Below are positions 19,147-37,896 of a stretch of 64,000 bases of DNA, piece after piece. Both the position numbers and the translations under genes were made by a program. The notes under the pieces were generated by a model. The model was not told the DNA's origin, made no database searches, and worked only from the letters and a program-made list of their open reading frames with translations. The DNA comes from an uncultured Alphaproteobacteria bacterium (GTDB lineage Bacteria > Pseudomonadota > Alphaproteobacteria > Micropepsales > Micropepsaceae): positions 1-64,000 of the forward strand of contig CAIOFO010000033.1 of assembly GCA_903857685.1 (NCBI GenBank). Reading direction: 5' to 3'. Within the stretch, counting starts at the first letter, position 1. Each line of letters begins with the position of its first letter.

Positions 19147-19249
19147 GGAAAGGCCCTTAGCCACTCTTCCCCGCCAGTGTGCCAAGGCCCCAGTCAACAA
19201 ACCCTTAAACATATTGGATCATATAGATAAAAGGGTTCGGTGGCCTTTC

Positions 19250-19274
19250 GTTGCCTACGCTGCCGCTAGGCAAC
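19250..19274. repeat. Hairpin repeat, loop TACGCTGCCGCTA, copy 3
   Basis: Perfect eight-base arms GTTGCCTA and TAGGCAAC around CGCTGCCGC. It lies in the 170-bp divergent gap between the TadD-like gene and the TAXI protein gene. Same loop as the other copies with one T-to-C change. Confidence 0.6.
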
Positions 19275-19316
19275 CCGTCCAAAATCCGACGCAATGGGGG
19301 AGTTGGTTAACAACCC

Positions 19317-26789: not shown

Positions 26790-26825
26790 CTCTCGCGCTA
26801 TCGGTGGCGGCTTGATTTTCTGGAA

Positions 26826-26920
26826 GGTGGAAGCCGGCGCGACCCGAAGCAAATTCGTTACGGCTGCTTCGTTCCCGACCTGACCGGGTTGGCGACAGCT
26901 TCGTCCGCACCGACTTCCGA
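26826..26920 (-). ncRNA. ffs: Signal recognition particle RNA (4.5S, small bacterial type)
   Basis: On the minus strand the conserved SRP domain IV core is plain: GGTCAGGTCGGGAACGAAGC followed by AGCCGTAACG. The ends close with a perfect 12-bp helix, GGAAGTCGGTGC (from 26918) with GCGCCGGCTTCC (to 26829), allowing G-T pairs. The inner helix GACGAAGCTG / TTTGCTTCGGGTC continues the hairpin. Length about 95 nt. The RNA binds Ffh and targets nascent membrane proteins. A -10-like TATATA (26926-26931) lies seven bases before the predicted 5' end. Divergent position next to dnaX is the Caulobacter arrangement. Confidence 0.92.
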
Positions 26921-26925
26921 GCCGG

Positions 26926-26985
26926 TATATAAGCCCTGGGGACGCTTTTTGCGAGTCGCAAAATCCGCTCCTGGCTTGCTATAAT
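26926..26985. promoter_or_regulatory. Divergent ffs/dnaX promoter region with TTTTGCGAGTCGCAAAA palindrome
   Basis: Leftward: TATATA at 26926-26931, seven bases from the ffs 5' end. Rightward: perfect TATAAT at 26980-26985, seven bases before the dnaX ATG. Between them at 26947-26963 is a perfect palindrome with eight-base arms around one G. Its centre is GAGTC, a GANTC site of the cell-cycle methyltransferase CcrM. I see no clear -35 boxes at standard spacing. Confidence 0.6.
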
Positions 26986-29286: not shown

Positions 29287-29383
29287 GCGCGGGTCTTTTG
29301 CGCCCTGAGTTAGTCGCGCGTGCTCACGTACGTCCGTACGCTCCGCACGACGCTCCTGCTCAGGTCACAAAATTCCTCGCGCC

Positions 29384-35499: not shown

Positions 35500-36219
35500 T
35501 CAAATCCTGATGCGGTTTAAAAACTGAGTGAGGTCCCTGGTTTCATGATCTATGTGCAAGGCCGACGCAACCGGAATTTCCGGGCCCTGACGGCCCCAGA
35601 CCGCATCGGTGTTCAGCCATACCGTGGTCATGCCCAGGGCATGCGCCTCCACCAGATTGTGCGCGATATCGTCGAACATCGCCGCCTTTTCCGGCGCAAA
35701 TCCGCCCCGCGCGACAATGCGACGATAGGCGGCGGCATCGGGCTTGGGCACAAAGCCCAGATCGCGAATGTCCCAGACATCGTCAAACAGGTGCGTGAGG
35801 CCCAGCCGCGCCAGCACCCGCCCGGCATGATGAGCGCAGCCATTGGTGAAGACATGGCGGCTGCCCGGCAGCCTCTCGATGGCGAAGGTCAGCGCCCCAT
35901 CGGGATTGAGGTCGGTCAGGTCGATCTGGTGGACGAAGTCCAGATAGGGCTCGGGGTCGATGCCATGCTCCTTGATCAACCCGTTCAGGGTGGTGCCGTG
36001 GTCCCGGTACAGCGTCTTCTGCACGGCGCGGGCGGCAGTCTTTTCCAGGCCCAGAAATTTGGCGACGAATTCCGTCATGCGCGCGTCAATGCGCGCGAAG
36101 ACGCCGCTGTCGGCGCGATAAAGCGTATTGTCCAGATCGAACACCCAATGCTTCACGTGCCGGAAATCGGGACGCGAGTCCGGCGTTTCCTGGGAGCTTT
36201 GGGGGGAATATCCGGGCAT
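35500..36219 (-). CDS. HAD-family pyrimidine 5'-nucleotidase
   Basis: 239 residues. HAD motif [18 protein letters not shown] (nucleophile and acid Asp), motif II TNG ([12 protein letters not shown]), motif III Lys in [11 protein letters not shown] and motif [10 protein letters not shown]. The arrangement and the [12 protein letters not shown] cap segment match the SDT1/PHM8-type pyrimidine 5'-nucleotidases that precede dapD in many alphaproteobacteria. Dephosphorylates nucleoside monophosphates. First gene of the leftward operon; its promoter must lie in or next to the inverted-repeat element at 36237-36533. Confidence 0.88.
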
Positions 36220-36236
36220 GACGGGCGAAACATGGC

Positions 36237-36533
36237 CTCAGAGCAAGTTAGGGTCAAATTGAACCGCTGCGTCGGAGGGGTTTTGTGCTGTGGGCAGGGT
36301 TTCCTAGCGACAGCGTAGGCAACGGGCGCAGCACGTAGCGGGGACTACGGGCAAGCCCTTCGACGCTCCCACGGCGCAAAAGTCCCCGGCCCCCAAGGGG
36401 TTGCGTCCCGGCGGGCGCCTGCGGCCTCGCCGCGCTCGACCGTATTTCCTATACGCCCTTCGCGCGGCTCCAGGCGGTCACCTCGCCGGGAACGCAACGC
36501 AGCTGATTCAATTTGACCCTAACGTGCTCTCAG
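36237..36533. mobile_element. 297-bp element with ~36-bp terminal inverted repeats (MITE-like)
   Basis: Left end CTCAGAGCAAGTTAGGG continuing TCAAATTGAACCGCTGCGT; right end, reverse-complemented, CTGAGAGCACGTTAGGG continuing TCAAATTGAATCAGCTGCGT. The shared core GTTAGGGTCAAATTGAA is identical (36247-36263 and 36507-36523). Inside are a 14-bp stem (GTTGCGTCCCGGCG at 36400-36413 with its partner at 36484-36498, one bulge) and a copy of the CGCTGTCGC hairpin at 36303-36319. There is no ORF of note and no clear target duplication. It fills the divergent gap between the nucleotidase and DUF2336 genes. The mobile nature is inferred. Confidence 0.5.
36298..36324. repeat. Hairpin repeat, loop TACGCTGTCGCTA, copy 5 (inverted)
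   Basis: On the minus strand GTTGCC-TACGCTGTCGCTA-GGAAAC: five of six arm pairs form. It lies inside the 297-bp inverted-repeat element. Confidence 0.5.
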
Positions 36534-36630
36534 CCGGGCCGCTGGCAAGTTTGTTAACGCGGGGAAACCAAGCTTGTTTAACAGCTCTTAACGGCCAAAG
36601 TCCGACACTGCGCCCCGTCAGGGAGTGCGC

Positions 36631-37896
36631 ATGAAAAAATCCGCGCCGTATCGGGATTTGCCCGAACAAGGCGGTCTCAGCCCGCGCCATGCGCTCGACA
36701 TATTGGAGATACGCGCGCGCGAAACCCAGTCCTATCTGGCCCAGCGCACCGATGCCGGCGACGCCGTGCTGCAGTATCTGGCCGAACATGGCGCACCCGC
36801 CACCCGTGCCGCTGTCGCCGCCAATGTCGCCGCCCCCGCCGCGGTCAACCGCTTTCTGGCCGAAGACGATGATGAGAATGTGCGCGTCGAACTGGCGGTC
36901 AAGATCGCCCGCCTGATGCCGGGGCTCGATGCGCAGCATAGCGCCCATATCATCGCCCTCACCATCGAGACGCTGGAGTTTCTCGCCACCGACTCCGCCA
37001 CGCGCGTGCGTGCCGTTCTGGCCGAGGAGATCAAGCATCTCACCAATGTGCCGCGCGATATCGTGTTGGCCCTGGCGCGTGATCTGGAACAGATCGTCGC
37101 CATGCCCGTGCTGGAATATTCCCCCCTGCTGTCGGATGCCGACCTGATCGAGATTATCGCCTGCGGCCAGGTGCGCGAAGTGCTGGTGGCCGTGGCGCGC
37201 CGCCGCCCGCTCAGCGAAAACGTATCCGCCTGTCTGGTGCAGTCGCTCGACGTCCCCGCCGTGGCGGCGCTGCTGGTCAACCCGGACGCGAAAATTCGCA
37301 AGGAAACGCTTGAGCGGGTTGTCTCGGAAGCGGAGGAAATAGAATCCTGGCAACTGCCGCTGGCGCTGCGCGCCGATCTGTCCGCCCGGGCAATCCGGCG
37401 CATTGCCGGCTTTGTCGGCGCCGCCATCATCGAGCGGCTGGCGGCGCGCCATGATCTGGCGCCGGCCACGCGAACCCATCTGAACCGCCAGCTGCGCCTG
37501 CGGCTGGAGGAAAAGACCGATGCCGTGGAAGCGGCGGCCGCTGCTGCCGGCAATGTCGCAAAGGCCAAGGCGGGTCATTCGCTCAACGGAAATTTCGTCG
37601 AGGACGCGGCGCTGGCCGGGCACCGCGAAAGTGTGATCCTGGCTCTGGCGGAATTGGCGCTGGTTCCCGCAGCCAATGTGCGGCGCATTCTGGCGTCCGG
37701 CCGCGCCAAGCCGCTGGTGGCCCTGGTCTGGCGCGCCAAGCTGTCCATGCGGGTGGCGTTCAAGATCCAGACCTTTGTGATGAAATTGCCGGGCCACGCA
37801 TTGCTGCCGGCCCGTGACGGCGTGGGCTTTCCGCTGACTCCGGAAGAGATGAACCGGCAGCTGTCCTGTTTCGACATACAGGAATTGCCGCGCTAG
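36631..37896 (+). CDS. DUF2336 domain-containing protein
   Basis: 421 residues from the ATG at 36631, which has CAGGGAG six bases upstream (a GTG lies two codons earlier). Almost wholly helical, made of HEAT-like helical pairs (AVAANVAAPAAVNRFLAEDD; DSATRVRAVLAEEIKHL; VNPDAKIRKETLERVV). This is the pattern of DUF2336, a family almost confined to alphaproteobacteria and of unknown function. No signal peptide or membrane helix, so cytoplasmic. Converges on the DUF1036 gene with a 13-bp gap. Confidence 0.8.
   Translation: MKKSAPYRDLPEQGGLSPRHALDILEIRARETQSYLAQRTDAGDAVLQYLAEHGAPATRAAVAANVAAPAAVNRFLAEDDDENVRVELAVKIARLMPGLDAQHSAHIIALTIETLEFLATDSATRVRAVLAEEIKHLTNVPRDIVLALARDLEQIVAMPVLEYSPLLSDADLIEIIACGQVREVLVAVARRRPLSENVSACLVQSLDVPAVAALLVNPDAKIRKETLERVVSEAEEIESWQLPLALRADLSARAIRRIAGFVGAAIIERLAARHDLAPATRTHLNRQLRLRLEEKTDAVEAAAAAAGNVAKAKAGHSLNGNFVEDAALAGHRESVILALAELALVPAANVRRILASGRAKPLVALVWRAKLSMRVAFKIQTFVMKLPGHALLPARDGVGFPLTPEEMNRQLSCFDIQELPR

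Follow-up and report, generated by a model that had tools for sequence, protein, structure and literature searches.

The locus raised the question of what the gene-less stretch of 297 bp at positions 36,237 to 36,533 is, and how it came to lie between two divergent genes of an uncultured member of the Micropepsaceae (Alphaproteobacteria). It belongs to a 64,000-nucleotide window at the start of contig CAIOFO010000033.1 (assembly GCA_903857685.1) and separates the HAD hydrolase gene, the first of the HAD-dapD-dapE-murI operon, from the DUF2336 gene. The initial annotation, made from the letters alone, regarded it as a miniature inverted-repeat element that fills the whole divergent zone. It proposed comparison with the empty site in relatives, and it named an orthologous site filled throughout the order, with no copies elsewhere, as the outcome that would speak for a conserved regulatory region instead.

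Of 68 genomes of the genus, 61 had the HAD gene; 30 of these 61 loci, the window's own included, were compared. The gap between the HAD and DUF2336 genes was measured in 27 of the 29 relatives (L068, with no DUF2336 match, and L087, which was partial, were dropped) and spanned 106 to 197 bp in all 27, as against 411 bp in the window. The 297-base stretch is an insertion. The empty site in the two nearest relatives is CTTAAG, and they read CGGCTTAAGGCCATGTTT and CGCTTAAGGCCATGTTT, where the window, on the strand matching these reads, has CGGC-TGA-element-TGA-GGCCATGTTT. The flanks are thus CTTAAG in the relatives, TA on both sides of other copies, and CA and TC around the window copy. Given TA at either end of other copies, the window copy is most simply explained by entry into T-TA-A, duplication of TA and two later changes; its flanks TCA...TCA can also be read as a putative 3-bp duplication. 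The divergent zone is not filled completely, since some 18 bp separate the element from the HAD start codon and, toward DUF2336, roughly 100 bp of the ancestral spacer are left. That the stretch is a conserved regulatory part of the divergent promoter without mobility, as its position between divergent genes of conserved order would suggest, is refuted by the empty gap in 27 of 27 measured relatives; related elements at unrelated loci speak against it as well, and it can practically be dismissed. The pattern of a site always filled, with no other copies, was tested for and not seen. The features of the locus are listed in Table 1.

Table 1. Coordinates of the element, its parts, the neighboring genes and hexamers, and its single-domain relatives in the window
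Feature	Position	Strand	Basis
Putative mobile element proper, GAGC...GCTC, 289 bp	36241..36529	+ (orientation as in covariance model R1)	Empty site and alignment to other copies set boundaries
Left target dinucleotide: CA in this copy, mostly TA in the family	36239..36240	.	Empty site and flanks of other copies
Right target dinucleotide: TC in this copy, mostly TA in the family	36530..36531	.	Empty site and flanks of other copies
Left arm (terminal inverted repeat)	36241..36264	+	Inverted-repeat pairing
Right arm (terminal inverted repeat)	36506..36529	-	Inverted-repeat pairing
First hairpin domain (L), contains 17-bp palindrome CCTAGCGACAGCGTAGG	36268..36389	+	Fold alignment of copies
Short junction hairpin GCCCCCAAGGGG	36389..36400	+	Fold alignment of copies
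Second hairpin domain (R), L homologue in inverted orientation	36400..36499	-	Fold alignment and domain model
TTGACC in arm, -35-like, 17 bp from CATGTT	36252..36257	-	Sequence match
CATGTT, retained -10-like hexamer of HAD operon	36229..36234	-	Sequence match
TTGCCA, ancestral -35-like hexamer, now ~300 bp from partner	36543..36548	-	Sequence match
HAD hydrolase gene, first downstream of split promoter	35500..36219	-	Gene annotation
DUF2336 gene, opposite side of element	36625..37896	+	Gene annotation
Single-domain relative, model positions 34-132, 49.2 bits	29287..29382	-	Covariance model R1
Single-domain relative, model positions 34-132, 29.5 bits	26700..26798	-	Covariance model R1

The ends of the stretch are inverted repeats, as the initial annotation had stated, and their length was corrected: the ungapped arms (36237-36263 and 36507-36533) measure 27 nt, of which 25 are paired (93% complementary), with 243 nt between them, and the annotated 36 bp requires gaps taking in a GCTGCG piece. 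The internal inverted repeats quoted there were found (14 nt and 8 nt), and the entire stretch folds into one long fold-back (z = -7.68), equaled by none of 100 shuffles. A 15-mer arm core occurred in the window solely in the two arms, each with 0 mismatches; when up to 3 mismatches were permitted, two or more matches also arose in 10 of 100 shuffles. Genome-wide (own genome, 2,995,451 bases in 160 contigs), the search returned the two arms and one match with 2 mismatches, against 1 match in the control. BLAST of positions 36200-36570 against the own genome recovered the stretch itself and its arms, plus five short matches that all fall on one internal palindrome, and by covariance model search the two-domain form is a single copy there. 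The palindrome of domain L (window 36298-36320, also 19249-19276) is itself a dispersed repeat that recurs in the own genome and elsewhere in the genus.

Copies of the element were found across the class. In a BLAST search of 96 family genomes, seven besides the own one had long matches to the interior, and the other matches among the 33 positive genomes were short. With covariance model R1, matches at E ≤ 1e-12 were obtained in 11 of 96 genomes of the order (the 96 of the BLAST set) and, own included, matches at E ≤ 1e-10 in at least 27 of 289 alphaproteobacterial genomes, from at least 24 of 223 genera; the class-wide counts are lower bounds because six candidates were scored per genome, and part of these matches are single-domain or partial. 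Three named plasmids carry full elements, those of Terrarubrum flagellatum (172 bits), Agrobacterium sp. MA01 (128 bits) and Thalassospira marina (125 bits). An exact-pattern search of named genomes returned nine stretches, all in alphaproteobacterial metagenome assemblies. No match was obtained for one exact pattern among viral contigs, for one copy among phages, or for two other copies among plasmids, and a match in Paracoccus carries no element. The median length was 272 bp over 78 copies, with 67 of the 78 at 262-280 bp. No frame was open in more than 19 of the 78 copies; with frames not conserved, a coding role was ruled out, in agreement with the annotated lack of a gene.

The element is short and without coding capacity, it has terminal inverted repeats, and its copies are dispersed at unrelated loci, as in miniature inverted-repeat transposable elements (MITEs). 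Its probable mobilizer was indicated by the target. The joined flanks were counted in 58 of 59 class-wide copies (L285 was left out, its flank being cut by a contig end; the set of 59 excludes L273, where the element reaches the contig end, and 19 family-level copies), and they matched YTAR in 52 of 58 and CTAG in 26 of 58, which fits duplication of TA. IS630 elements use TA as their target, which is duplicated on insertion (PMC2170065), and a preference for TA within CTAG is reported in a title cited by the same source. Around the DDE_3 genes of carriers elsewhere in the class, five IS630 elements were delimited, each 1,051-1,054 bp long and bounded by YTA and an inverted repeat starting GAG(C/T). 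The one in G366 has 17 perfect outer positions, TA counted; its two open frames scored 142.5 and 58.6 bits against the NCBIfam IS630 transposase (cut-off 100, the second alone falling below it) and gave DDE_3 and an IS630 helix-turn-helix in Pfam. Eight of ten IS630 ends shared at least 12 of 16 positions with one of the element arms, compared to 1 of 432 control sites, which were not confined to those beginning TAG.

On this evidence, the element is very likely non-autonomous and of the IS630 (Tc1/mariner) kind, that is, an IS630-type MITE with an unusual structured interior. The annotation as a miniature inverted-repeat element is borne out by the empty site in 27 of 27 relatives, the copies elsewhere, the YTAR flanks and the IS630 elements with like ends in the class. 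Those ends, together with insertion into TA and the preferred CTAG, are in common with autonomous IS630 elements of other genomes; an IS630 transposase was not found in the own genome. DDE_3 (PF13358) had a match in 9 of 20 carrier genomes, 7 of them above the cut-off, and none at E ≤ 0.001 in 11 of 20, and there were 0 matches in the own genome, which stands against an IS630-type MITE, as do the window flanks CA and TC instead of TA and arms that vary between copies far beyond expectation for the ends of one transposase. The initial annotation had suggested BLAST for full-length transposons with the same ends: the own genome gave arms only, and the five IS630 elements came from other genomes of the class. 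No autonomous IS630 element with element-type ends was found inside the own family, and the pattern TAGAGCMNGWT was not in excess of its reverse, used as control, across six genomes (15 versus 18 in the own genome). Draft genomes can be incomplete by a gene, and loss following insertion is frequent; the absence of DDE_3 from the own genome therefore limits the claim to the origin of the element and not its present activity. As all IS630 evidence comes from other genomes, we infer mobility, and mobilization in trans, from sequence comparison.

By the proposed mechanism, a transposase supplied in trans would bind the arms, cut out the element and paste it into TA, which would be duplicated. In the own lineage, the site of entry would have been the spacer between the two promoter hexamers (-35-like and -10-like) of the HAD-dapD-dapE-murI operon, and since the own genome shows no DDE_3 transposase, the window copy is probably stranded now. 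At an IS630-type gene, L312 (G320), the possible ends ATACCAACGAGCATTGA resemble the differently starting arms of L257 (G321) and L293 (Agrobacterium sp. MA01); from these ends, arm types may follow transposase types.

The arms proved to be matched within a copy and variable between copies. Over positions 3-25, the two arms of a copy agreed at 93.8% (111 mismatches in 1,794), compared to 45% agreement between left arms of different copies and 68.5% within one genome (for the latter two figures, a register shift of up to 3 was permitted in pairing arms, which slightly favors matching). Mismatches between arms showed no G.T excess (G.T 32 versus A.C 42), the pattern of a DNA feature. In 73 same-genome pairs, 239 sites had changed alike in both arms and 207 in one arm or discordantly, and the arm pairing reaches about 25 positions in the element, fading after about 17 in IS630 elements. 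Both results are in line with template switching at replication, by which one arm would be copied onto the other without selection by a transposase, and template switching is reported both to create perfect hairpins and to keep them perfect (PMC8794818). The same pattern is expected if two equal transposase sites, or the stem, are under selection, and the pairs of copies are not independent; template switching is a serious candidate to which we give somewhat less than an even chance. The copy L238 (G175) has arms of different types (15 of 24 alike), each like arms of other G175 copies, which would fit a swap of halves between two copies.

The interior is organized differently. A consensus fold over fourteen full copies had 96.1% of cells paired, and 178 cells were changed on both sides, compared to 49 in shuffles and at most 39 with slid pairing. 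The domain-model test took 73 of the 78 copies, those outside 255-300 bp being left out. The sequence model of domain L scored more than 10 bits on the reverse complement of domain R in 65 of 73 copies; no control reached this score (0 of 73 forward strands, 0 of 365 shuffles and 0 of 73 reversed sequences). By these alignments, the interior is composed of two homologous hairpin domains in inverted orientation, common across the class. Interior identity, mismatches and loops were counted in 79 rows, the first (best) strand per source. Identity was 58-59% between genomes and 77-82% within a genome. The folded interior is thus better kept than the ends, though not sharply, an unusual arrangement that reverses the usual MITE pattern.

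The mismatches within the domains differed in sense, with G.T 74 versus A.C 40 in domain L and G.T 37 versus A.C 63 in the inverted domain R, and in rows that are related and fitted to a model this asymmetry hints at selection on a folded single strand, each domain in its own sense. It is one of the observations that would fit a dispersed structured RNA family, with the interior transcribed and acting as RNA and mobility secondary; the strong interior covariation and the junction loops of UNCG type (37 of 79) are the others. UNCG on one strand is GNA on the other, which is a known stable DNA loop, and for this reason the loops are not decisive for RNA. The lack of a G.T excess in the arms also counts against RNA, as do the kinship of the rows and their alignment to a model. 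Rfam gave no match at E ≤ 1 for the window stretch and, for 18 loci with copies, a single miRNA match of 32.8 bits that is not credible against a gathering score of 69. We consider an RNA family doubtful, and an IS630-type MITE is retained as the reading of the element.

RIME and ABC of Rhizobium are palindromic intergenic repeats of alphaproteobacteria. The element is alike in kind to these and to Bru-RS of Brucella, the latter listed at 103-105 bp as against 272 bp here. It shares with CIR of Caulobacter and Brucella the alphaproteobacterial intergenic location, two hairpins and TA ends (PMC2229807). CIR is about 110 bp long with unpaired ends and GANTC in the terminal loop, by the description in the same source, whereas the ends of the present element pair, its length is 272 bp and any GANTC occurs only in 36 of 78 copies; by length, end pairing and GANTC it was not assigned to CIR as described. 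RUP of Streptococcus pneumoniae is likewise a gene-less intergenic repeat with TA at its ends, which resemble those of an IS630 element (IS630-Spn1), and it is proposed to be moved in trans (PMC2229807, PMC3049150). RUP has 107 bp, a 9-bp terminal inverted repeat and a near-uniform sequence in one species complex, unlike the present family with its 272 bp, arms of about 25 bp differing between copies, inverted-dimer interior, many genera and no IS630 in the own genome.

REP dimers of the GTAG and CGTC families also consist of two inverted palindromic units able to fold together, some within outer palindromes (PMC3733652). This likeness would allow an element of REP type, mobilized by a tyrosine transposase (Y1/RAYT) via single-stranded hairpins, and recognition by structure would account for the variable arms. 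The source describes REPs of 20-40 bp with GTAG or CGTC tags (PMC3733652), whereas the domains here are about 100 nt, the ends IS630-like and no such tag was seen by eye; with a length of 272 bp and no tag, the element was not classed as a REP. Y1_Tnp was absent from the own genome and from 6 of 9 carriers, the existing Y1 genes are flanked by another repeat, GGGGTCAGAGT, and TA duplication and YTAR do not fit. With no Y1 transposase flanked by the element, a RAYT-mobilized REP was rejected, and movement of this kind is very unlikely. Of the Y1 genes L204, L205 and L207 (G024, G063), the first two adjoin a repeat with GGGGTCAGAGT or its complement and L207 a related tract, of a kind known for TIR-associated tyrosine transposases (PMC3733652).

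By their descriptions, RUP, CIR, REP dimers and Bru-RS are different from the element in length, in its inverted dimer, in its class-wide spread and in its matched-pair variable ends. The 272-bp family was undescribed in the literature searched on palindromic alphaproteobacterial repeats, RIME, ABC, CIR and rhizobial IS630 MITEs; most subscription papers lay outside this search, and absence from print is not claimed. A search combining TTAGGGTCA with palindromic and transposase gave no match, and among the matches listed for GAGCATGATC none concerned bacterial repeats by title. Most small gene-less bacterial repeats had no known mobilizer at the date of one review, which names RUP as the exception (PMC2229807). 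For the present family, a candidate mobilizer (IS630), a target (YTAR) and an empty site are known, which makes movement in trans directly testable.

The domains also occur singly. In the own genome, R1 gave 17 matches, consisting of the window element on two strands and 15 weaker matches, two of these in the window, and the weaker ones that were viewed, L094 not among them, look single-domain (about 100 bp). Single-domain relatives (the two in the window and 13 elsewhere in the own genome) have ends such as TAGGCGCG/CGCGCCTA. Next to one of them, a segment of about 138 bp (window ~26824-26961) is inverted relative to its flanks in 4 of 4 relatives searched. At the site orthologous to 29287-29382 in G080 (L210, L218), a 12-bp perfect palindrome, TAGGCGCGCCTA, replaces the single-domain element, as would result from loss of the interior and fusion of the ends. 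G003 and G024 (L170, L175-L178, L180, L184, L194, L195, L197) and G063 (L193) have palindromes made up of arms only, 35-40 bp long apart from one 70-bp form, which look like what deletion would leave of full elements. Because the empty site at the HAD gene has no palindrome, the arm-only palindromes and the G080 remnant are read as deletion remnants and not as targets.

Upstream of the HAD gene, 24 of 29 relatives have TTG separated by a spacer of 17 bp from a CATGTT-like hexamer; in L065, L069 and L070 the spacing is kept and the second hexamer is changed (by eye), and L085 and L089 had no match. The insertion point lies between the two conserved hexamers, and the near arm supplies TTGACC exactly at the conserved spacing from CATGTT. 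When the ends of all copies were placed at this site, 14 of 156 offered TTG, and TTGAC occurred only in the window copy's own two. Since the near arm offers TTGACC at the ancestral spacing, the operon is probably still on, and a fair reading is that the arm-borne hexamer was a selected or lucky rescue of the operon. The suggestion that the element may have brought promoters therefore stands at the level of a split hexamer pair and a matching arm hexamer; a consensus promoter scan of the locus called no promoter. The companion suggestion of a terminator found no support within the element, as two terminator-like matches at the right edge compare with a shuffle mean of 1.1.

Taken jointly, the results tentatively suggest a class-wide inverted-dimer family of about 272 nt, in which the conserved spreading unit would be the folded interior and not the ends. 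The IS630-type ends would drift or swap as matched pairs, each domain of about 100 nt would be a strand-specific folded RNA or single-stranded DNA recognized by a host factor and would also spread alone as a unit of about 100 bp, and the window copy would have been taken into the promoter of the lysine and cell wall operon, rebuilding half of it. This composite is possible and is offered with reserve. Variable ends around a conserved interior raise the question of what the interior is for, and the locus itself would be a clear example of a conserved promoter broken by an insertion that also made good the missing half.
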